Shown in pieces: positions 53,627-64,000 of a stretch of DNA of 64,000 nucleotides. Numbering within the stretch: position 1 is the first letter of the stretch; each line of letters begins with the position of its first letter. Origin of the DNA: Kordia sp. GTDB taxonomy: Bacteria > Bacteroidota > Bacteroidia > Flavobacteriales > Flavobacteriaceae. The position numbers and the translations under genes are program-made. Location of the stretch: positions 1 through 64,000 of the forward strand of contig NZ_JAKVBC010000006.1 in assembly GCF_022447245.1 (NCBI RefSeq). Direction: 5' to 3'. The notes under the pieces were generated by a model. The model was not told the DNA's origin. It did no database searches and worked only from the letters and a program-made list of their open reading frames with translations.

Positions 53627-55681
53627 TTATTTTCTCCAATTATTTAAATTTTTAATTAGGAAAATACTAGTGATCACCATGAGCAATAGCATAAATATTT
53701 CTGAGATATTTCCGCCTTCAAAAATAAGAGCTGTTACAAAATGATATACATTGTATAAACCTGCAATACTTGCCCAAATGAGTGATGTTATTTTAAACCA
53801 TTTTTTAGAAACTTCAATCGTTAATAATCCAAAAAATAGACATAAGCCTTCAAAGAGAATTCTATATATATGATGAAAAAATGGAGCTTCTCCTGTAGCT
53901 CCTTCCATTACTAGGGTTTCATTGTAGTAAATGTTAAACAATCCATACATGTGATGGATAATCCAGCCAATTCCAAGAAGTATCCAAAGGATGACAATTT
54001 TTGTTCTCATAGGTATGTGATTTTTATCTTCAATGTTTTCTGTTTCTAATAAATTTTTGTTCAATTTTTTAGCTTCTTCAGCCAGTAGTTTTTTTCGATT
54101 TCTATAATCGATAGGATATTTTGTGAAAGCACTTTTTTCTTGAATATTTGGTTTTATTTTAATGTACACCAACAAGCCAATAATGGACAAGAATATCCAA
54201 AGAATATCAATCGTAAAAATTTCTATCTGATGATTTTTATAAGTATTCCAAATCCAGTTATTATGCAATATTCCATTTGTAATAGGAATCAAAAAACCAA
54301 AAATTGAACCTAATAATAGATTGGTTCTATTAGTGACATAATTATTGCGCTTGTATCGGAAGAATAGAATAAAAGCCAACCAAACGATAAAGAAAAAAGT
54401 ATATATAGCTGTCTGCTTGTCTACAAAATATCCGTTTGTGAATTTTACAAACAAAAATGACAAAGCTGTTACTGGAAACATTGTTAAACAGATAGCTAAG
54501 TATATATGTCCAACTTTTGCTGTATGGAGTCTTTGGCGAAATGTCATACTCTTTTTATTTCGTGCTTCTATCCAAATAAGTACTCCTGTTAGGATGACAA
54601 AACAGGTGATAAAAGCCAAAATAAAATAGCTAATTTTCATAGAAACGCCTCCATAATTAGCAAAATGCAAGCGTCCCATCAATCGCTGTGAATCTTCTAA
54701 ATAGTTAAACTCACCAGGTTTTTTGATGTCTTCAATTTCACTTGTGTAAGGATTATAAATTATTCGCCCAAGACCAATAAAACGCTCCTTAGCATGCAAT
54801 TCTCCTAAAAGAACATACTTCATATTAGTTCCACCATAATTTTTGATAAAAGCACGAGTTACGGTATAGTTATCCCATTTTTTTGTGTTCTCTATTACAT
54901 ACGTATTTAAGCATGGCATTTTTTCGTTTGAAGGTGCTATCCATTCGTAGCTTTTTACATCTGGGCGCATATCCGCTATCAATTTATCTTGATCACCGCC
55001 GTATAAGAAATTTGCAGGAAGTAATACCAAAATAGACAACCCAAAATAAGCGCCTGTGACTGCAAACATAAATTGATATGGTAACCCTATTACTCCAAGT
55101 GCAGTATGTGAATCTGTCCAAACACGTTTAAGCGTTGATTTAGGATTAAAATGATAAAAATTTGGAATGATTTTTTTCCAATGCACTATAATACCCGTAA
55201 CAATGGCGAATAAGAAAAATAACGCAACAAAACCTGCTAAATAGATTCCTATAATAGGTATTTGTTGAAAAAAGTGCAATCTATATAAAAACTCTCCTAA
55301 ACTGTATTGTTCTTCATAGGATTTTGTTTCTAATGTTTTAGTATCGAGATATAAAAATGTACTATGATCATCTACAGTTTCAGCCAATGTGTCTTTTTGA
55401 GCACTCATAAAGACTGAGATTTCATCACTTTCAACACCAAATCTCAGTTGAACATCTCTACTTCTTAAATCGTAGTCTTCATTGAGTTTCTGTAAAATGC
55501 CATCAAAATCAATATGTTGTTTTTCTATGTGACTTATCGGTGTCGCATCTTCCCATACTTTTATTTCATCTTTAAACAAAGCAAAAGCTCCCGCAAAAAA
55601 AATGATGTACAGCGCAACACTTATGACGATACCACTTACTGTGTGCGTATTAAAGAAAACATTGTAATTTCGCTTAGTCAT
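53627..55681 (-). CDS. PepSY-domain membrane protein (siderophore-iron reductase type)
   Basis: 684 residues. It begins with the PepSY_TM pattern (FNTHTVSGIVISVALYIIFFAGAFALFKDEI), has several membrane helices and conserved WTDSHTALGVIGLPYQFMFAVTGAY, and extra C-terminal helices. Family members (PiuB/FegB-like) sit at the inner membrane and are linked to reduction or release of iron from siderophores. Last gene of a four-gene operon headed by the siderophore receptor; its start overlaps the stop of the 100-residue gene by one base. Confidence 0.87.
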   Translation of the reverse strand: MTKRNYNVFFNTHTVSGIVISVALYIIFFAGAFALFKDEIKVWEDATPISHIEKQHIDFDGILQKLNEDYDLRSRDVQLRFGVESDEISVFMSAQKDTLAETVDDHSTFLYLDTKTLETKSYEEQYSLGEFLYRLHFFQQIPIIGIYLAGFVALFFLFAIVTGIIVHWKKIIPNFYHFNPKSTLKRVWTDSHTALGVIGLPYQFMFAVTGAYFGLSILVLLPANFLYGGDQDKLIADMRPDVKSYEWIAPSNEKMPCLNTYVIENTKKWDNYTVTRAFIKNYGGTNMKYVLLGELHAKERFIGLGRIIYNPYTSEIEDIKKPGEFNYLEDSQRLMGRLHFANYGGVSMKISYFILAFITCFVILTGVLIWIEARNKKSMTFRQRLHTAKVGHIYLAICLTMFPVTALSFLFVKFTNGYFVDKQTAIYTFFFIVWLAFILFFRYKRNNYVTNRTNLLLGSIFGFLIPITNGILHNNWIWNTYKNHQIEIFTIDILWIFLSIIGLLVYIKIKPNIQEKSAFTKYPIDYRNRKKLLAEEAKKLNKNLLETENIEDKNHIPMRTKIVILWILLGIGWIIHHMYGLFNIYYNETLVMEGATGEAPFFHHIYRILFEGLCLFFGLLTIEVSKKWFKITSLIWASIAGLYNVYHFVTALIFEGGNISEIFMLLLMVITSIFLIKNLNNWRK

Positions 55682-55983
55682 TATAAAAATGGATTGTGTT
55701 GGTTACCATAATGATATATTATGTGTAGTATGACAATGATGATGAGATATAAAGTCCAAGCCTTCCAGCCATTTGTAAATAAAAATGGAATAATGAGAAA
55801 TAAACACCAAACCATAAAAACTGTAAAAATAGAAGTGATTAAAACTTCTTTAGGGTATGGTAAAAACAATGGTAAACATAGGTGTATCAAAGCTGTAATA
55901 ATATAACCTCCTATAACACCTGCAGTAATTTTAGCAAATTGATGCCAAGGTGATTTATTTAAATACTTAGGATTAGCTGGCAT
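55681..55983 (-). CDS. Small membrane protein of the siderophore operon
   Basis: 100 residues with three hydrophobic helices (FAKITAGVIGGYIITALIHLCLPLFL; VLITSIFTVFMVWCLFLIIPFLF; WTLYLIIIVILHIIYHYG). The family is a frequent companion of PepSY proteins in Bacteroidota iron operons. Overlaps the upstream 124-residue gene by 11 bases and abuts the PepSY gene. No catalytic motif. Confidence 0.75.
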   Translation of the reverse strand: MPANPKYLNKSPWHQFAKITAGVIGGYIITALIHLCLPLFLPYPKEVLITSIFTVFMVWCLFLIIPFLFTNGWKAWTLYLIIIVILHIIYHYGNQHNPFL

Positions 55984-56347
55984 AAATTGTAATTAATTCT
56001 ACTGTTAGTGAAATGATAAAAGCAACAAATAAATACTTGTAATTAATAAGTTTTATAGGATTGATCATGATTACCAAACTCAAGAGTGTCATCAGAGAAA
56101 TTAGCCAAAAAAGAAGTCCTGATGTATTGCCAAGATAACGTGTACATAAGAATAATGCTATCACATATAAAACACTTCCTATAATCTTTGATAATTTCAG
56201 ATGAGATTGAAACCATTGTTCCAGCACAGTATTTGTGTTTAACATTGCTTTTTTAGAAGTATTAAGCCAAAAAAAGCAGCCAAGTGTCATTAAAAAAATA
56301 ATACTAGTAATCATCGTTATTTTTATAAACCAAGTAACTCCAAACAC
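55973..56347 (-). CDS. Small membrane protein of the siderophore operon
   Basis: 124 residues with about four helices (IKITMITSIIFLMTLGCFFWL; IIGSVLYVIALFLCTRYL; LLFWLISLMTLLSLVIMINPI; YLFVAFIISLTVELITIYA). Unknown function. Located between the receptor (56 bases upstream) and the 100-residue protein, with 11 bases of overlap, so expression follows the iron-uptake operon. Confidence 0.7.
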   Translation of the reverse strand: MFGVTWFIKITMITSIIFLMTLGCFFWLNTSKKAMLNTNTVLEQWFQSHLKLSKIIGSVLYVIALFLCTRYLGNTSGLLFWLISLMTLLSLVIMINPIKLINYKYLFVAFIISLTVELITIYAS

Positions 56348-56403
56348 AAAATGTTTAGAGCTACTTGGTTGGTTGATAATGTGTGACTAATTCAAATAAA
56401 TAC

Positions 56404-59073
56404 TTAGAACTTATAGGAAATTGTTCCTAAGAAAGCTCTTGATGGTTGTGCGTTTACAGTTGTCCATCCTGTGTAATATACTTCGTCTGTAAAGTTGTTA
56501 ACTTTCAGTCCTATTCTAAATTTATCGGCATCATAATACAAGCTTGCATTATAAATGGTATAACTTGGTAGTGTAAATGTTCCCGTGATAGCATTATTTA
56601 CTGTTAAGTTTTCTGATGCTCCATTAAAACCAACTCCAACTCCAAAGTTTTTAGCAAAACTTTCCTCTGGAAATTTATAATCTGCCCAGAAGTTATATAA
56701 TGATTCTGGACCTGCTGATTCTGGTCTTCTTCCTTCAAACTCAGTCAAGTCTCTTCCAGATTGTCCTGTTGTTTGATATAATGCTTTTGTACTGAAAACA
56801 TCAGTATATTCCATATCATTAAATGAATATGAAGCTCTTACATTTAATCCTTCAAAAGGATTAGCATTTAACTCAAACTCTAGTCCTTGACTTACGACTT
56901 GAGCAATATCAATAGTTCTTGGAAATAATGGCACTGTTGGATCAGAAGTTGTAAAATCATCTACTGTGATATGATAGTAACTCACGCCAAAATTCAATTT
57001 TCCTTGTAAAAGGTTTGTTTTTACTCCACCTTCAAATTGCCGTGCTTTTTGTGGTTCAAAAACATCAATAGTTCCGTCAGGATTTACAATTGGATTTACG
57101 TTTACAAAACCTGTTTGATAATTAGCAAATACAGATAATTTATTCTTAAATGGTTGGTATAAGATTCCAGCTGTTGGCGAGAATGTAGTTTTCGTATAAT
57201 CATCTTCAGCTACAACCTCACTTCCATCTTGTATAAAATGATCTAAACGCAATCCAACATTCACTGTTAACTCTGGAGTTACGTTGATTACATTAGAAGC
57301 ATATGCTGCAATAGTTTGTGATTTTAAAGTACCTCTAAACGGTTCTAGTTGATTAAAAACTGCATCTAATTCTGCTCTACTTGGCGAATATGTTGCATTA
57401 GGAGTAAATGTAGTTGGTATTACTTGTCCATCAGCTGATAAAAAAGCATCAAAATATGGGAAAGCAGAGAAACTGTTTTCAATAAAAGCTCCTACTGGCT
57501 CTAAACCAGGAATGCTGTTAAAAAACCCTAATAATTGTGGAAAATTAGAGGTTGAAGTTAATACTGGATTACCGTTTTTATTTCTATTCTTTCTCTTATT
57601 ATGAATATAATCTACACCCAAAACTACTCTGTTACGTACATCTCCAATTTTAAAATCTCCCGTAAAGTTTTGTTGTAAATTGATACGTGTCTCATTTGCA
57701 TCTCTTTGGCTGTATACACGTGTAAAAGAGTCTCTTTGTAATAACGCTTGTGATTCAGCTAGCATTGGATTGATTAATGGATCAATTACAGGCTGAATAG
57801 CTGGTAAAATTGGTTGCAATTCTGGAATTTGGTAAATCTGTTGTAATTGTAAAATTCCGATAGAACCACCATCAAATTGGTATTGGTAATATCCGTCTGT
57901 TTCTGCATAACTACTAGAGAAGATTGTTTGTGATGTCCAATTATCTGAGATTTTATAGTCTGCAATAGCTCTTGCATTAAATGTTAAGTTATCTAAATAC
58001 ACGTCATCAGAAGTAAACGATTTATTTGGATCAACATTTAGCTCATCAACATTCGTAGAAACTAAGGGTAATCCTCTACGTAAGAATAACATCGATGGAT
58101 TGGTTTGCCTTGTTTGTGTAAACTCTATTCCTGCGGAAATATTAAGCCTATTATTCACTCTGTATGAAAGCGATGGTGCTATAAAATATGTATCTCTAAA
58201 ACCTGCATCTTGGAAACTATCTTCTGTCAAGTATGATGCGTTCACTCTAAAGAAAGTATTATTACCCGATCCTAATTCTGTGTTATAATCTGCTGAAATT
58301 CTATGTAAACCAAAAGATCCAGCTGTATAAGAAGCGGTTCCTCCTGTTCCTTGGTATGGCTTTTTAGTTACAATGTTAATCAAACCACCTAAAGAAGTTT
58401 CTGTACTTCCAAATAAGGTAGCTGATGGTCCTTTTATAACTTCGATACGCTCAATGTACGAAGGATCAATGGCACTAAATGTAACTCCTGCTACACCATC
58501 AATTAATCTTGGTTGTACGCTAAAACCACGTGTTGAGAAAAACGCAGTTCCATTCCCTGGAGATCTACCAGTAGCTTCCCATAATTTATAAACACCAGTA
58601 GCGTTTGCCATAGCTTCATCCAAGTCTGTTACGACTTGAGATTCTAACAAATCTGATGTTATAGTCGTATACACTTGTGTATTTTCTATATCTTTTAAAG
58701 GAAGTTTAGATACATAAGCCGTCTTTTTTCTCGAAAACTTATTCTTTCGTGAATCTAAAGTAACAGCTTGTAAAAGCTCATTTCCTTCATACAAAATAAT
58801 ATCTGAAAGATTTACTGGTGCAGTTACAGATATTTCTTTGGTTTTGTAACCAACATAAGAGATTACTAAAACCTTCGCTCCTACTACATTTTCAATTTCG
58901 AATTTTCCATCAAAGTCTGTTTGTGTCCCTTTTTGACTTTCTTTCAAATACACATTTACACCGGCTAACGGAGTATTATTATTATCAATAATTCGACCTT
59001 GAATAGACTCATTCTGAGCCAGAGCACCTGCTGAGATAAAAAATAGCATTAATGTTGCGAATACAATTTTCAT
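56404..59073 (-). CDS. TonB-dependent siderophore receptor
   Basis: 889 residues. Signal peptide (KIVFATLMLFFISAGALAQN), carboxypeptidase-like domain (GRIIDNNNTPLAGVNVYLK), plug with IERIEVIKGPSATLFGSTETSLGGLINIVTKKP, and a barrel ending SRAFLGTISYKF with the C-terminal Phe. The plug pattern and the FhuA-like GGTASYTAGSFGLHRISADYN mark the ferric-siderophore group. Heads the operon with two small membrane proteins and a PepSY protein. A palindrome 68 bases upstream of the start suggests iron regulation. Confidence 0.94.
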   Translation of the reverse strand: MKIVFATLMLFFISAGALAQNESIQGRIIDNNNTPLAGVNVYLKESQKGTQTDFDGKFEIENVVGAKVLVISYVGYKTKEISVTAPVNLSDIILYEGNELLQAVTLDSRKNKFSRKKTAYVSKLPLKDIENTQVYTTITSDLLESQVVTDLDEAMANATGVYKLWEATGRSPGNGTAFFSTRGFSVQPRLIDGVAGVTFSAIDPSYIERIEVIKGPSATLFGSTETSLGGLINIVTKKPYQGTGGTASYTAGSFGLHRISADYNTELGSGNNTFFRVNASYLTEDSFQDAGFRDTYFIAPSLSYRVNNRLNISAGIEFTQTRQTNPSMLFLRRGLPLVSTNVDELNVDPNKSFTSDDVYLDNLTFNARAIADYKISDNWTSQTIFSSSYAETDGYYQYQFDGGSIGILQLQQIYQIPELQPILPAIQPVIDPLINPMLAESQALLQRDSFTRVYSQRDANETRINLQQNFTGDFKIGDVRNRVVLGVDYIHNKRKNRNKNGNPVLTSTSNFPQLLGFFNSIPGLEPVGAFIENSFSAFPYFDAFLSADGQVIPTTFTPNATYSPSRAELDAVFNQLEPFRGTLKSQTIAAYASNVINVTPELTVNVGLRLDHFIQDGSEVVAEDDYTKTTFSPTAGILYQPFKNKLSVFANYQTGFVNVNPIVNPDGTIDVFEPQKARQFEGGVKTNLLQGKLNFGVSYYHITVDDFTTSDPTVPLFPRTIDIAQVVSQGLEFELNANPFEGLNVRASYSFNDMEYTDVFSTKALYQTTGQSGRDLTEFEGRRPESAGPESLYNFWADYKFPEESFAKNFGVGVGFNGASENLTVNNAITGTFTLPSYTIYNASLYYDADKFRIGLKVNNFTDEVYYTGWTTVNAQPSRAFLGTISYKF

Positions 59074-59455
59074 TTTAATTTAGATTAAATAAATATTATA
59101 ATTTTCAACAAAAATATTTCACAAAACTTTAATAACAAAGTTTATTTAGATTAAATTTAAATAAAGAGTATTAAGAAGGTAAATTCAAATTAGTAACGCA
59201 CTATATATGAAGGTTTTTTAACTAAAAAAACTTAAATCTTACTTTACTTTTAAAAAAGACTCTCTTTCCAGGATGAGTCAATAAGAGTTTATCTTTTTCT
59301 ACTAGACAGATTTTTAATGATGTATCTCTACTCAAAAACCTAAATAATTTTCATAATCCTATTTTTAAGGGTTATTTATTAACATATTCACAAAACTTAC
59401 TAAAAAAAGATACCTGCACGTGTAGTGTAAAACTATAATTTGTAGGTTTGCAGTA
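59074..59455. other. Intergenic region between the siderophore and arg operons
   Basis: 382 bases, very AT-rich, between divergent operons. It contains two copies of ATTTAGATTAAAT (59078-59090 and 59144-59156), the second inside the palindrome noted separately, and near the arg end the box TAGGTTTG (59443-59450), a possible -7 element for the leader transcript. Otherwise nothing is visible. Confidence 0.5.
59141..59165. promoter_or_regulatory. Candidate iron-regulator (Fur-like) operator
   Basis: TTTATTTA-GATTAAATT-TAAATAAA, an imperfect palindrome upstream of the siderophore receptor gene; its ATTTAGATTAAAT word recurs next to the start codon. The site type and the iron-uptake context suggest Fur or a related repressor; the assignment is inference. 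Confidence 0.45.
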
Positions 59456-59521
59456 ATGATTGCACAAAATAAAACATACACAATATTACCCGAGGTTCGC
59501 TTCCGACGCCGCCGCTGCTAA
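59456..59521 (+). CDS. Arginine-rich leader peptide of the arg operon
   Basis: 21 codons from ATG 59456 to TAA 59519-59521, ending EVRFRRRRC. Five of the last seven sense codons are arginine (CGC, CGA, CGC, CGC, CGC), four of them consecutive, in a genome whose genes mostly use AGA and CGT. It lies 240 bases before the first gene of an arginine biosynthesis operon and 167 bases before a rho-independent terminator. This is the arrangement of a ribosome-mediated attenuator in which stalling at Arg codons when charged tRNA-Arg is low would let transcription continue. Confidence 0.72.
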   Translation: MIAQNKTYTILPEVRFRRRRC

Positions 59522-59687
59522 TTCTACTAGCTAGTAACACTTTAGTATTTACATTGTTTTATTTATCATTTCTTGAATCATTTTATATCCATAGCATTTT
59601 ATCAAAGTTGCGTTATTTTAACAAATAACAATCTTCCCGTACGCCGCTATTTTATTCGCCGCCCGTAAGGGTGCACTTCTATTTTGG
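59522..59687 (+). promoter_or_regulatory. Arg operon leader RNA with alternative pairings
   Basis: Between leader peptide and terminator: a 12-base palindrome TACTAGCTAGTA (59525-59536) just after the stop, a small hairpin GCCC-GTAA-GGGT with a GNRA-type loop (59661-59672), and segments that can pair with the 5' arm of the terminator: TTCGCC (59656-59661) with GGCGAG (59695-59700), and TTCCC (59634-59638) with GGGAA (59686-59690). These would be anti-terminator pairings. Judged by eye; no folding was run. Locally GC-rich against an AT-rich background. Confidence 0.55.
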
Positions 59688-59714
59688 GAACTTAGGCGAG
59701 TCCGGTTCTTTTTT
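59688..59714 (+). terminator. Leader terminator (attenuator)
   Basis: GAACT-TA-GG / CC-GGTTC with loop CGAGT and a run of six T. It lies 46 bases before the first arg-operon gene, in the same direction, so it must be bypassed for expression. Confidence 0.7.
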
Positions 59715-59760
59715 CCAGATACATCAAATCAACATTTTAATCATTTTTTACTAAAACACC

Positions 59761-60378
59761 ATGGAAATTGTCATTGCAAACAATTCACATCGCGTTTACG
59801 CTGAAACTATTTGTGAAACTATTTTACAAGCTGCTCAAGTAAGAGGAACAGGAATTGCAAAGCGAAAGCCAGCATACGTGATCTCAAAGATGGAGAAAGG
59901 AAATGCTGTCATTGCATTAGATGGCGAAAAATTTGTAGGCTTTTGCTATATCGAAGCTTGGAGTCACGGAAAATTTGTCGCAAACTCTGGACTGATTGTA
60001 CATCCTGACTACAGAGGAAAAGGCATTGCCAAACAAATCAAGAAGAAAATTTTTGAACACTCTAGAACCAAATTTCCCAATGCAAAAGTATTTAGTATCA
60101 CCACAGGATTAGCCGTGATGAAACTCAATAGTGAATTGGGTTATAAGCCAGTTACATTTTCAGAACTTACCGAAGATCAATCCTTTTGGAATGGTTGCCA
60201 AACCTGCAAAAACTTTGATGTATTAAAACGTACAAATCAAAAAATGTGCTTGTGTACAGGCATGTTGTACGATCCAAATTCTAACGAAGCAAAACAAAAA
60301 ACGAAAGTAAAAGAGAAGGTTTTTAAAAGATTGAAAAGTATCAAACAAACCTTATTTCTAAAAAAAGATAAAAAATGA
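59761..60378 (+). CDS. GNAT N-acetyltransferase, first gene of the arg operon
   Basis: 205 residues. The GNAT domain carries the CoA loop NSGLIVHPDYRGKGIAKQIKK (RGKGIA) and an FSITTGLAVMKLNSELGYKPV B motif. The C-terminal part has a Cys-rich stretch (NGCQTCKNFDVLK and MCLCTGMLYD) and a basic tail. As first gene before argG, argC and argD it is likely the N-acylation step that replaces ArgA/ArgJ in Bacteroidota, making N-acetyl- or N-succinyl-glutamate. Overlaps argG by 4 bases. Confidence 0.85.
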   Translation: MEIVIANNSHRVYAETICETILQAAQVRGTGIAKRKPAYVISKMEKGNAVIALDGEKFVGFCYIEAWSHGKFVANSGLIVHPDYRGKGIAKQIKKKIFEHSRTKFPNAKVFSITTGLAVMKLNSELGYKPVTFSELTEDQSFWNGCQTCKNFDVLKRTNQKMCLCTGMLYDPNSNEAKQKTKVKEKVFKRLKSIKQTLFLKKDKK

Positions 60379-61571
60379 AGACTACAAAGAAATTAGTCCT
60401 TGCCTATAGTGGCGGTTTAGATACGTCATATTGCGCCATACATCTCACCAAAGAGAAAAATTTTGAAGTCCATGCAGTAAGTGTAAACACAGGTGGTTTT
60501 ACTCAAAACGAAATTAACACAATAGAAGAAAATGCTTACAAAATGGGCGTTTCAACTTATAAAAATATTGATGCTGTTAAAACCTTCTATGAAAAGGTAG
60601 TGAAATATTTAGTGTTCGGAAATGTCTTAAAAAACAATACGTATCCGCTTTCCGTAAGTGCTGAACGTATCGTACAAGCCATCGAAATTATTGAATACGC
60701 AAAAAGTATTGATGCTAAATATATTGCTCATGGAAGTACCGGTGCAGGAAACGATCAAGTACGTTTTGATATGATTTTTCAAACTTTAGCTCCAGATATT
60801 GAAATCATTACGCCAATTAGAGATCAAAAATTGACTCGTGAAGAAGAAATTCAATATTTACAAGCAAATGGTGTGGATTTGTCTTGGGAGAAAGCAAAAT
60901 ATTCCATTAACAAAGGGCTTTGGGGAACCAGTGTTGGCGGTGACGAAACCTTGACTTCTAATAAATCATTACCAGAAGAAGCATATCCATCACAACTGCA
61001 AAAACAAACAGAAGAAAACGTGCAACTTAGTTTTTTACAAGGAGAATTGGTTGCCGTAAATGGAAAACAAAATGCTCCAGAAATCAATATTGAAATCTTA
61101 AATAAACTCGCTTCTGCTTTTGCAATTGGAAGAGATATTCATGTGGGTGATACAATCGTTGGTATTAAAGGGAGGGTTGGATTTGAAGCGGCTGCAGCGA
61201 TTATTTGTATTAAAGCACATCATTTATTGGAGAAACATACATTGACCAAATGGCAACTGCAACACAAAGAATATCTCTCTAACTTTTATGGAATGCATTT
61301 GCATGAAGGGCAATACCTAGATCCTGTAATGCGTGATATTGAAAGCTACCTAAAAAGTAGTCAAACAAAGGTCTCTGGAGATGTTTTCATTACGTTAAAA
61401 CCATATCATTTCACTCTAGACGGAATTCAATCGAGGCATGACTTAATGAATGCCAAGTTTGGAAGTTACGGAGAAATAAACTCTGGTTGGACAGCTAACG
61501 AAGCCAAAGGTTTCATCAAAATCTTGGGCAATCAAAACAAAATATATCAACACATAAACTCAGAAGCATGA
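60375..61571 (+). CDS. argG: Argininosuccinate synthase
   Basis: 398 residues. Joins citrulline and aspartate with ATP. N-terminal PP-loop VLAYSGGLDTSYCAIHL, AHGSTGAGNDQVRFDMIF, a Bacteroidota-style middle (WGTSVGGDETLTS) and the expected C-terminus (GRVGFEAAAAIICIKAHHLLEKHTL). Normal length. Overlaps the GNAT gene and argC by 4 bases each, so coupled translation within the arg operon. Confidence 0.94.
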   Translation: MKTTKKLVLAYSGGLDTSYCAIHLTKEKNFEVHAVSVNTGGFTQNEINTIEENAYKMGVSTYKNIDAVKTFYEKVVKYLVFGNVLKNNTYPLSVSAERIVQAIEIIEYAKSIDAKYIAHGSTGAGNDQVRFDMIFQTLAPDIEIITPIRDQKLTREEEIQYLQANGVDLSWEKAKYSINKGLWGTSVGGDETLTSNKSLPEEAYPSQLQKQTEENVQLSFLQGELVAVNGKQNAPEINIEILNKLASAFAIGRDIHVGDTIVGIKGRVGFEAAAAIICIKAHHLLEKHTLTKWQLQHKEYLSNFYGMHLHEGQYLDPVMRDIESYLKSSQTKVSGDVFITLKPYHFTLDGIQSRHDLMNAKFGSYGEINSGWTANEAKGFIKILGNQNKIYQHINSEA

Positions 61572-62545
61572 TAGAGGTCGGAATTATAGGAGGCGCTGGT
61601 TATACTGCAGGAGAACTTATTAGGTTATTAGTGCATCATAGCAAAGTCAATATCAATTTTGTATACAGCACTTCCAATGCAGGAAATAAGATCAGCTTTG
61701 TACATCAAGATTTGATTGGTACTACAAACATGTCGTTTACAGATACAATCAATGCAAAAGTTGATTTGGTGTTTTTGTGTTTAGGGCATGGAAATTCGAA
61801 AGCATTTTTAACAGAAAACAAATTCTCAGCAAAAACTAAAATTATTGATCTGAGTAATGATTTTAGATTGAAAAATGATCAAGAATTTGACAATTTATCT
61901 TTTGTCTACGGATTGCCAGAATTGCAAAAAGAAGCGATACAAAAAGCACAAAACATAGCCAATCCGGGTTGCTTTGCGACAGCTTTACAATTGGCATTGC
62001 TTCCATTAGCACAGCATGGATTGTTACATAATGATGTCCATATTAATGCAGTAACTGGCGCTACTGGTGCAGGAACTTCGTTATCAAAAACAACACATTT
62101 TACGTGGAGAGATAATAACTTTTCCTATTACAAACCTTTTACACATCAGCATTTAGGTGAAATTCATCAAACCATGCAACAATTACAAAACGGTTTTGAT
62201 GCTGAAATTCACTTTATGCCAAATAGAGGAAACTTTAGTAGAGGTATTTTTGCAACATTATATACAACATTTGAAGGTAGTTTAGAAGAAGCCGAAATAC
62301 TGTACAATAGTTTCTACAAAGATACCGCATTTACTTTTGTGAGTGACCATCAAGTGCATTTAAAACAAGTAGTGAATACCAATAAATGCCTCTTACACCT
62401 ACACAAACACGAAAACAAATTATTAATCACAAGTAGTATTGACAATCTATTAAAAGGTGCTTCTGGTCAGGCAATTCAAAATATGAATCTGATGTTTGGT
62501 TTTGAAGAAGCTGAAGGATTACAACTAAAAGCTACCTTTTTTTAA
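61568..62545 (+). CDS. argC: N-acyl-gamma-glutamyl-phosphate reductase
   Basis: 325 residues. NADPH-dependent reduction of N-acyl-glutamyl phosphate to the semialdehyde. NAD-binding start VGIIGGAGYTAGELIRLL, KIIDLSNDFRL, active-site Cys in NPGCFATALQLALLPL and GATGAGTSLSKTTHF. Overlaps argG by 4 bases; argD follows 12 bases later. Confidence 0.94.
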   Translation: MIEVGIIGGAGYTAGELIRLLVHHSKVNINFVYSTSNAGNKISFVHQDLIGTTNMSFTDTINAKVDLVFLCLGHGNSKAFLTENKFSAKTKIIDLSNDFRLKNDQEFDNLSFVYGLPELQKEAIQKAQNIANPGCFATALQLALLPLAQHGLLHNDVHINAVTGATGAGTSLSKTTHFTWRDNNFSYYKPFTHQHLGEIHQTMQQLQNGFDAEIHFMPNRGNFSRGIFATLYTTFEGSLEEAEILYNSFYKDTAFTFVSDHQVHLKQVVNTNKCLLHLHKHENKLLITSSIDNLLKGASGQAIQNMNLMFGFEEAEGLQLKATFF

Positions 62546-62557
62546 CAACAAAATATC

Positions 62558-63685
62558 ATGAGTTTATTCAACGTATATCCATTATTCAATATCACACCCG
62601 TTACTGCAAAAGATGTATATGTATACGATCAAAACAATACAAAATATCTTGATTTGTACGGTGGACATGCTGTGATTTCTATTGGACATTCACATCCAAC
62701 ATACGTAACAGCTATTTCAAATCAGTTACGGAAAATTGGGTTTTATAGTAATTCGATTCAAAATCCACTTCAAGAAAAGTTAGCTTACAAATTAACAAGT
62801 TTGTCAAACTGTGAAGGCTATGAACTGTTTTTGTGTAATTCTGGTGCTGAAGCCAATGAAAATGCGCTAAAACTTGCATCTTTTCACACACAAAAAACAA
62901 ACGTCTTGGCTTTTAAAAAAGCGTTTCATGGAAGAACTTCAGCAGCAGTTGCAGCTACAGATAACACAAGAATTGTAGCTCCTATAAATGCACAACAAAA
63001 AGTAGATTTTGTCGATTTGGGAGATTTAGAAACTGTCGAAAATGTATTGAAGCAAGATAAAACTTGTGCCGTCATTATTGAATGTATTCAAGGTGTTGGC
63101 GGCTTGGATGAAAGTACCACCGCATTTTACCAAGGACTCGACATTCTATGCAAACAATATAACACACTGTTGATTGCGGATGAAGTTCAAGCTGGTTTTG
63201 GTAGAACAGGTGATTTCTTTTCGTTTCAAAAACATCTTATTACGCCAGATATAATTTCAATGGCAAAAGGTATGGGTAATGGTTTTCCAATTGGTGGTAT
63301 TTTGATTCACCCAAAAATTAAAGCTTCTCATGGCTTATTGGGCACAACATTTGGCGGAAATCATTTAGCTTGCAGTGCTTCATTAGCTGTTTTAGAGGTG
63401 ATAGAAACACAAGGTTTAATGCAAAATGCTACAGCAATTTCTGAGTACTTTCTAGCGGAAGCTTCCAAAATATCAAAAATTAAAAACACAAAAGGAAGAG
63501 GATTAATGCTAGGCTTGGAATTTGATTTCCCTGTTTCCGAAATCCGGAAAACCTTAATTCATAAGCATCACATTTTTACGGGAAGTGCCGCCAATCCGAA
63601 TGTATTGCGAATACTTCCACCATTAACCATTACGAAACAACACATCAATATGTTTTTTGAAGCATTACAAAAATTAATAGCATGA
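62558..63685 (+). CDS. argD: Acetyl/succinylornithine aminotransferase
   Basis: 375 residues. Class III PLP aminotransferase forming N-acylornithine: YGGHAVISIGHSHPTYV, FLCNSGAEANENALKLA, FKKAFHGRTSAAVAATDN, LLIADEVQAGFGRTGDFF and the PLP Lys in ISMAKGMGNGFPIGG. Overlaps the carbamoyltransferase gene by 4 bases. Confidence 0.94.
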   Translation: MSLFNVYPLFNITPVTAKDVYVYDQNNTKYLDLYGGHAVISIGHSHPTYVTAISNQLRKIGFYSNSIQNPLQEKLAYKLTSLSNCEGYELFLCNSGAEANENALKLASFHTQKTNVLAFKKAFHGRTSAAVAATDNTRIVAPINAQQKVDFVDLGDLETVENVLKQDKTCAVIIECIQGVGGLDESTTAFYQGLDILCKQYNTLLIADEVQAGFGRTGDFFSFQKHLITPDIISMAKGMGNGFPIGGILIHPKIKASHGLLGTTFGGNHLACSASLAVLEVIETQGLMQNATAISEYFLAEASKISKIKNTKGRGLMLGLEFDFPVSEIRKTLIHKHHIFTGSAANPNVLRILPPLTITKQHINMFFEALQKLIA

Positions 63686-64000
63686 AACAATACACAACAA
63701 TTTACGACATAGAAAATATCTCGAATGCGATTCAAGAAGCAATTGCGTTAAAAGAAAATCCATTTGCTCATACTCATTTAGGAAATAACAAAACATTGGT
63801 TATGCTCTTTTTCAATGCAAGTTTACGAACCCGTTTAAGCACAGAAAAAGCAGCTAAAAACTTAGGAATGAATGTCATGATTTTAAACGTAAATGACGCT
63901 TGGAATTTAGAATTTGAAGAAGGTGTCATCATGAATTTGAATGCTTCTGAACATGTCAAAGAAGCGGCGCAAGTCATTTCACAATACGCAGATATCATTG
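63682..64000 (+). CDS. argF: N-acyl(succinyl)ornithine carbamoyltransferase, 5' part
   Basis: 106 codons visible; the gene runs off the window. The carbamoyl-phosphate loop reads FFNASLRTRLSTEKAAKNL, with SLRTR in place of the STRTR of classical OTCase, as in acetyl/succinylornithine carbamoyltransferases (ArgF') of Bacteroides and Xanthomonas. This points to the pathway that carbamoylates an N-acylated ornithine, and a deacylase is expected beyond the window. Starts in the ATGA overlap with argD. Confidence 0.88.
   Translation, partial: MKQYTTIYDIENISNAIQEAIALKENPFAHTHLGNNKTLVMLFFNASLRTRLSTEKAAKNLGMNVMILNVNDAWNLEFEEGVIMNLNASEHVKEAAQVISQYADII

Follow-up and report, generated by a model that had tools for sequence, protein, structure and literature searches.

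A conserved arginine leader with two Arg-rich reading frames before the arg operon of Kordia and other Flavobacteriaceae

Results and Discussion

The region upstream of the arg operon in the window, by which we mean the whole 64,000-nucleotide stretch of DNA from a marine Kordia that was analysed, is a real and conserved arginine leader that carries sequence marks of translation, and it is more elaborate than the first-pass annotation of this DNA had described. Comparison with relatives established its predicted parts, namely two Arg-rich reading frames (ORF1 and ORF2), helix A, the hairpins P1 and P2, and their placement before the arg operon (Table 1). We propose, with a probability of roughly 55%, that the leader acts as a tandem leader-peptide switch which sets expression of the arg operon by the supply of Arg-tRNA. 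Control by an Arg-codon leader is highly probable, gating of ORF2 by helix A is somewhat better than an even chance, and Rho is put forward only tentatively as the output. The gene order that had been claimed to follow the leader, GNAT-argG-argC-argD-argF', was borne out. Divergent from the operon, on the minus strand, lies a gene for a TonB-dependent receptor (56404-59073), and beside it are two small frames and a frame of 684 codons, the block as a whole occupying 53627-59073 on that strand.

Table 1. Positions of leader and operon features in the window.
Feature	Position	Strand	Basis or remark
Sigma-A -7 box TAGGTTTG (TAnnTTTG)	59443..59450	+	ends 5 nt before ORF1 ATG
ORF1, Arg-rich leader peptide MIAQNKTYTILPEVRFRRRRC, ATG to TAA	59456..59521	+	promoter-anchored frame test
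Helix A, 5' strand AAATAAAACA, within ORF1	59467..59476	+	duplex-energy scan
Helix A, 3' strand TGTTTTATTT, upstream of ORF2 start by 8 nt	59555..59564	+	duplex-energy scan
ORF2, TTG start, 31 codons, (M)NHFISIAFYQSCVILTNNNLPVRRYFIRRP and stop, ending ...VRRYFIRRP-stop	59573..59668	+	open frame and start-codon column
P0 hairpin within ORF2, GTTATTTTAACAAATAAC	59612..59629	+	pairing and mutual-information scans
P1 hairpin CGCCC-GUAA-GGGUG, ORF2 stop codon in loop	59660..59673	+	nearly invariant
P2 hairpin with outer stem, 5' bulge whose last base is A, GG/CC and pentaloop CGAGU (UGNGU in almost all relatives)	59686..59710	+	covariation
T6-containing pyrimidine stretch, at best lineage-specific	59706..59716	+	T counts after P2
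G-poor stretch from P2 to GNAT, possible Rho loading region	59711..59760	+	base composition
GNAT acetyltransferase, arg operon gene 1	59761..60378	+	ORF and translation
argG, argC, argD-type aminotransferase, start of argF' (off window end)	60375..63999	+	

Upstream regions used for comparison

The GNAT gene was present in 8 of 11 Kordia genomes and in 202 of 299 genomes of the family, a few of these matches being weak (E about 1e-4). Upstream regions were taken from the window and 7 congeners, from 29 further loci and from two additional sets of 80, giving 197 regions, of which 180 were distinct. One of the sets of 80 was hand-picked from the listed GNAT matches, and the most distant GNAT genes are therefore under-sampled.

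ORF1 and its promoter

The first-pass annotation had pointed to a 21-codon frame with 5 Arg among its last 7 codons and to a GC-rich stretch after it, and both are real features of the window. In Flavobacterium psychrophilum the -7 box is reported to span -12 to -5 (PMC9723704), and on that spacing the box in the window would put +1 near 59455, a single base ahead of the ORF1 ATG, which suggests a near-leaderless mRNA. Among 86 non-redundant two-ORF leaders, the box ends 4 or 5 nt 5' of the ORF1 ATG in 63 and lies within 40 nt of it in 69.

Since the rule by which ORF1 was assigned itself demands at least 3 Arg, the fair test of ORF1 is a promoter-anchored one, in which the first ATG after a TAnnTTT(G/A) box was taken, with no condition on Arg, in 131 non-redundant leaders with P2. 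Such an ATG exists in 97 of them, and the frame that it opens ends with at least 3 Arg in the last 10 codons in 84 of the 97, compared with 0 of 97 for either alternative frame; applied elsewhere in the window, this rule of promoter, ATG and Arg run gave 1 of 37. The frame so tested is ORF1 or, in single-ORF leaders, their sole frame. Thus, the start codon and the Arg run of the original description are both kept in relatives. The promoter-anchored frame was identical with ORF1 in 64 of 71 two-ORF leaders, a subset preselected for Arg.

ORF1 was found in 130 of the 175 leaders that have ORF2, and in 127 of these it is spaced 25-70 nt from ORF2, although in at least two of the 127 two-ORF leaders as used in the mutual-information scan (L090 and L103) the ORF1 call is probably false. 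Most of the remaining 45 have a single ORF, a frame of 22-47 codons that usually ends in ..RRP-stop at P1, and L023 and L031 were grouped with the single-ORF leaders despite having ORF1-like frames. In L032, a single ATG frame (30 codons, ..GERRFFPRRP-stop) sits at the place of ORF2, 183 to 93 bases before GNAT; no ORF1 was found there, and it seems to have been lost.

The Arg codons of ORF1 are CGC in 330 and CGT in 128 of 632 cases, and those of ORF2 are CGC in 366 and CGT in 280 of 779. The GNAT genes (99 counted) prefer AGA, with 418 of 696 Arg codons and only 40 CGC, and 31 ORFs of the window likewise favour AGA (202 of 492). Pairing within P1 would explain part of the CGC and CGT use in ORF2 and none of that in ORF1.

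A second leader frame

The first description included neither ORF2 nor helix A, P0 or the invariable P2 loop. In 8 Kordia leaders a second frame can be seen that is open to ..RRP-stop, and an ORF2 starting with ATG, GTG or TTG (53, 40 and 82 cases, respectively) could be assigned in 175 of the 180 distinct upstream regions. The five regions left unassigned comprise three GNAT upstream regions without a recognisable P2 (L044, L046 and L058), one with a frame of 51 codons that exceeds the length limit (L092), and one without a start (L113).

When the condition on the start was dropped and a stop in the P1 loop was still required, 146 of the 177 leaders with P2 could be compared, the stop not being found by pattern in the other 31. 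The ORF2 frame is open over 24 codons in all 146, as against 20 and 27 of 146 for the other two frames. Two-ORF leaders end in Pro-stop in 102 of 127 cases, and in these 102, which were selected for that end and for an ORF2 start, translation would start at codon -31 in 71 and at codon -30 in 20 (91 of 102), with CTG at neither. Codon -3 is Arg in 98 of the 102, with changes among CGT, CGC and CGA, and codon -2 is Arg in 101. The view of ORF2 as mere structure was ruled out by the open frame together with the column of start codons.

Four regions (L078, L081, L092 and L105) have no stop in the P1 loop, and their Arg-rich frame continues for a few codons to ..VRV-stop or ..VRA-stop; three of them (L081, L092 and L105) have P1 with GCAC/GUGC instead of GCCC/GGGU. 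In L066 and L076, P2 lies about 180-260 bases before GNAT, beyond the usual distance, and an extra stretch ahead of the frame (CGAAAGGGGCT..GCCGACGATTTAGAGTTACTATTAT) is common to both.

The end of ORF2 reads RRP in 101 of 129 non-redundant leaders, and its length is exactly 31 codons in 76 of 175, a count to be read with the preference for 29-34 codons that was built into the choice of start. These two regularities and the frequent Pro-stop end would suit a nascent chain whose C terminus, RRP-stop, arrests the ribosome on the stop codon when free arginine or a related metabolite is present, in the manner of TnaC. The RRP end is compatible with such an arrest, short of proof. However, pairing in P1 would by itself be enough to fix both CGC CC(N) and the stop, the P1 loop gave no stop by pattern in the 31 of 177 leaders mentioned above, and the residues before the end vary, so we regard arrest by the nascent chain as improbable.

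Conserved RNA structure

Pairing was scanned with 24-nt window pairs, the duplex energy within a leader being compared with that across leaders. Helix A was the best of 292 window pairs (60 leaders; t 10.0, mean -7.5 vs -4.9 kcal/mol), and after helix A and its overlapping windows the next pair joins the end of ORF2 with P2 (t 3.2). In a finer scan at P1-P2, the range of which excluded ORF1, P2 reached t about 10 both in the 36 single-ORF leaders and in the 68 two-ORF leaders. P0 pairing gave t 6.7 in two-ORF leaders and t 2.9 for the same window pair in single-ORF leaders; the mutual-information scan was informative for P0 only.

P2 was found in 177 of the 180 regions, with an outer stem of at least 4 pairs in 175; in 170 of the 177 the 5' side carries a bulge of 1-3 nt and the 3' side none. 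Among 131 non-redundant leaders, outer pairs 1-4 are standard in all 131 and pair 5 in 130, each position showing several pair types, but these counts are partly built in, since the outer arms were registered by best pairing, and the duplex scan and the shuffle test serve as their controls. For the two inner pairs the counts are 130 with GC and 131 with GC or AU. The loop sequence is UGAGU in 89, UGUGU in 29, UGCGU in 11, UGUGC in 1 and CGAGU in 1, which is the window, where P2 deviates by having GGCG in place of the GGTG that the search pattern expected.

In an alignment of 48 sequences, changes on both sides were seen in 7 of 13 pairs of P1 and P2 together and in 6 of 8 pairs of P2. P1 is nearly invariant, apart from 3 of the 48 sequences in which a C-G pair has become A-U through changes in both strands, and it is weakly tested because it hardly varies. 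None of 500 shuffles matched the observed measures of the P1-P2 structure, in a test which favoured that structure as it was derived from the same sequences, and slid controls were at most 57% paired. The fold of the whole 259 nt was no better than that of shuffles (z 0.31), and RNAalifold on a MAFFT alignment lost the outer stem of P2 owing to misalignment of the bulge.

The bulge ending in A, the GG/CC pairs and the UGNGU loop hardly vary, in contrast to the covarying outer stem. This would be expected if P2, with P1, were a putative binding site for a protein or for arginine that decides the fate of the transcript, the frames setting the folding only. The single copy of P1-P2, found before the arg operon wherever checked, points the same way, and so does the shape of P2, which we take to resemble the MS2 coat-protein hairpin. 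P2 is, however, small for a metabolite aptamer, and we hold a binding site acting in this way to be unlikely. Unlikely, too, is a combined sensor, in which the two Arg-codon frames in relay would report Arg-tRNA charging and P2 would add a second, arg-operon-specific signal, being bound by protein or arginine and replacing ArgR in the Flavobacteriaceae that carry the operon.

Termination and other outputs

P2 and the T6 after it had been taken for a terminator. The hairpin is present, but a conserved terminator was not confirmed: P2 folds at only -5.0 kcal/mol, and at least 5 T occur in the 8 nt after its stem in 28 of 131 leaders, compared with 19.9% of background windows. By the same measure, T-richness was found in 4 of 41 single-ORF leaders (background 26.9%), 24 of 88 two-ORF leaders (background 15.8%) and 8 of 8 Kordia leaders (background 23.1%), and an uninterrupted run of at least 5 T follows P2 in 1 of the 8 Kordia leaders, that of the window. 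P2 with T6 was rejected as a conserved terminator on account of this background-level T-richness. An intrinsic terminator would be at most Kordia-specific, since T-richness is complete in Kordia and at background level across the family, and a family-wide intrinsic terminator at P2 appears not to be supported. A simple window scan gave one terminator-like site, at P1 and not at P2, where 0.5 was expected.

In a classical attenuator, P2 and the U-tract would form an intrinsic terminator, and a ribosome stalled on ORF1 or ORF2 would allow an antiterminator to form. The T6 of the window, the T-rich Kordia and two-ORF leaders, the one terminator-like site (though at P1) and the weak pairing of the ORF2 end with P2 are in keeping with this. 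That pairing signal did not recur in the finer scan, where 745 window pairs per group gave no clear covarying competitor of P2 and other pairs reach t 2.8, although an invariant helix would escape covariation scans. An antiterminator built by eye from 8 Kordia leaders, in which CUAAUUC of the ORF1 stop region pairs with the 5' arm of P2, was rejected, as it fell outside the best 25 of 292 pairs. The single-ORF leaders and the family as a whole show no excess of T after P2, the hairpin is weak, and a terminator needs no fixed loop or bulge, all of which makes classical attenuation decidedly unlikely. What stands of the attenuator reading in the first-pass annotation is thus the Arg-codon leader before the arg operon, conserved in relatives; no conserved U-tract and no clear covarying helix in competition with P2 were found in the leaders compared.

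The stretch from P2 to the GNAT ATG has 5.8% G and 16.4% C (129 leaders), compared with 10.9% G and 15.2% C upstream of 35 ORFs of the window, and so differs weakly from ordinary upstream DNA. The output might also lie in mRNA stability, with P1 and P2 governing access of RNases as the structures of Salmonella speF do; that precedent (PMC6386406) and the position of the stem-loops directly 3' of the leader stop speak for it, but no nuclease site is known, and we give it little credence.

Distribution and the leader of genus g128

Model R1 found one significant copy of P1-P2 (E <= 7e-4) in 17 of 25 genomes of the family, and these are exactly the genomes with a GNAT gene, the 8 without GNAT (three Kordia among them) having none. 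None of 15 genomes from other families of the order gave a significant R1 match, and three of these have matches at E 0.33-0.54. Three of the 11 Kordia genomes (G004, G005 and G007) have neither GNAT nor P1-P2 and are possible arginine auxotrophs.

Model R2 gave 34 strong matches (E <= 4.2e-8) in 395 genomes of the order, all in Flavobacteriaceae; of its 10 weak matches (E 0.0016-0.01), nine fall outside this family and one inside it (G602). In 395 genomes of the phylum there were 16 strong matches, in genomes repeated from the order set, and 3 weak ones. Most of the 395 had no match under the strict filters used in all searches above 40 genomes, which can miss divergent copies of P1-P2. GNAT and argG adjoin the strong match in 24 of 24 loci examined and 7 more matches adjoin known GNAT positions, G548, G591 and G666 (3 of the 34) having been left out of this check. 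As candidate relatives of P1-P2 outside the family the weak matches were rejected, 13 of 13 being without GNAT, ArgG, ArgC and ArgD in stretches of 1601 or about 3040 bases. Wherever checked, the predicted P1-P2 element is specific to the arg operon and present as a single copy per genome.

Among 20 family genomes listed as lacking an R2 match, 19 fall in g128, a large genus that might, judging by its size, be Flavobacterium. GNAT was sought in 19 g128 genomes, and 15 leaders (L236-L250) are of a type with its own architecture. In these 15 loci ORF1 has two CGG codons (..SR(T/K/I/M)..SPEVR(M/T)L..), and single-sequence prediction gives a pairing like helix A of -5.2 to -11.7 kcal/mol. ORF2 starts with TTG and has 55-63 codons in 14 of the 15, ending one base before the GNAT ATG in 10 and overlapping it in 4; in the remaining leader it has 41 codons and stops short of GNAT. 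This leader was not seen by eye in L252-L254, and G477 has a weak GNAT match only. Since ORF2 of g128 is not Arg-rich and P1-P2 is missing, the parts of the leader appear to be separable. Since ORF2 runs into GNAT, its translation should favour expression, and starvation should therefore open ORF2. The g128 architecture may thus be the best clue to the direction of regulation, and translation of ORF2 looks like an ON signal.

No ArgR and no described arg leader in the genomes and literature searched

The ArgR domain PF02863 was found in 0 of 40 genomes and PF01316 in 0 of 20 (8 genomes being in both searches), and the controls were positive in 8 of 14 and 9 of 14, including E. coli, B. subtilis and a Bacteroides. 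Given that the searched genomes yielded no ArgR, arginine may be sensed in these bacteria through the speed of ribosomes on the leader frames. Rfam gave no match in the window at the gathering score, and a further Rfam search gave one chance-level match (E 6.7). Among the literature matches listed, which lie mostly outside subscription journals, no title or abstract opening described an arg-operon leader in Flavobacteriia; the main text of PMC2965389 makes no mention of arginine or Bacteroid, and that of PMC2864571 none of arginine or argG.

A proposed tandem leader-peptide switch

In the tandem switch that we propose, plentiful Arg-tRNA would let the ribosome clear the near-leaderless ORF1 fast, so that helix A closes and the weak TTG or GTG start of ORF2 is rarely used. 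When Arg-tRNA is short, a ribosome would stall on the CGC/CGA run of ORF1 and the next would queue over the ORF1 start, keeping helix A open and ORF2 translated. One ribosome on the Arg codons of ORF1 (59498-59515) would not cover the 5' strand of helix A, and queuing is assumed. The ribosome on ORF2 would then slow on its ..RR..RRP-stop run beside P1 and P2 and would shield the G-poor RNA from Rho, so that the operon is transcribed; otherwise transcription would end before GNAT. The nearly invariant bulge and loop of P2 are probably read in this final step by a factor, which may be the Rho/RNAP machinery or a protein. Single-ORF relatives would retain only the stage made up of ORF2, P1 and P2.

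Such a leader is a candidate for the control of arginine synthesis in operon-carrying Flavobacteriaceae in which no ArgR was found. Its design would be unusual in placing two leader frames one after the other, with TTG, GTG or ATG as the start of the second and a covarying helix linking it to the first, and in having an arg-specific hairpin with a fixed loop and no conserved terminator tract. Each part of the leader can be mutated in simple reporters. Bacteroidota are mostly without Shine-Dalgarno signals, and this scarcity makes the phylum an informative setting for control of transcription by leader translation.

Comparison with known systems

In attenuators of the trp and his type, a biosynthetic operon is preceded by a short leader that contains a run of codons for the regulatory amino acid. 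The arg leader, known here from sequence alone, is alike in having a short Arg-codon frame before a matching operon, and is unlike in having no conserved U-tract, no clear competing helix and two frames. A helix that links the leader frame with a translation start further downstream, the feature of the ermC/toiL type, is present as helix A, and here it stands before ORF2 and not before an enzyme gene. We know of no P1-P2-like element in the Salmonella orf34-speF leader.

For that Salmonella leader, it is reported that ribosome pausing at the Arg codons alters RNA folding and that translation of the leader blocks Rho (PMC6386406). The two systems share Arg codons in a translated leader frame and a hairpin just after the leader stop, whereas orf34-speF, as described, has one leader frame, controls ornithine decarboxylase and not arginine synthesis, and belongs to another phylum (PMC6386406). 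E. coli toiL-topAI resembles the arg leader in its hairpin between the leader frame and the downstream start, which is opened by stalling and is linked to Rho, but it senses antibiotics and opens the start of the main gene, not of a second leader frame (PMC12121999). Taken together, the reports on toiL (PMC12121999) and orf34 (PMC6386406) indicate that leaders are able to open a start further downstream and to block Rho. In S. aureus, rbfL likewise has an Arg-codon leader that responds to arginine supply; it differs in having two Arg codons (AGA and AGG), in that the ribosome, once paused, covers the ribosome-binding region belonging to the next gene, and in controlling a biofilm regulator (PMC13009471).

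The end of ORF2 also invites comparison with E. coli tnaC, and the probability that we attach to a TnaC-like arrest is given above. The tnaC leader reportedly has its stop after Pro near the regulated point, with Rho as output. It is unlike the arg leader in that its arrest is induced by tryptophan and its operon is catabolic (PMC8429421). Closer in phylogeny, clues for leader-peptide attenuation before amino-acid operons have been reported in F. psychrophilum, with pheA and hisG among the conserved elements (PMC9723704), and an Arg case among those attenuators is possible.
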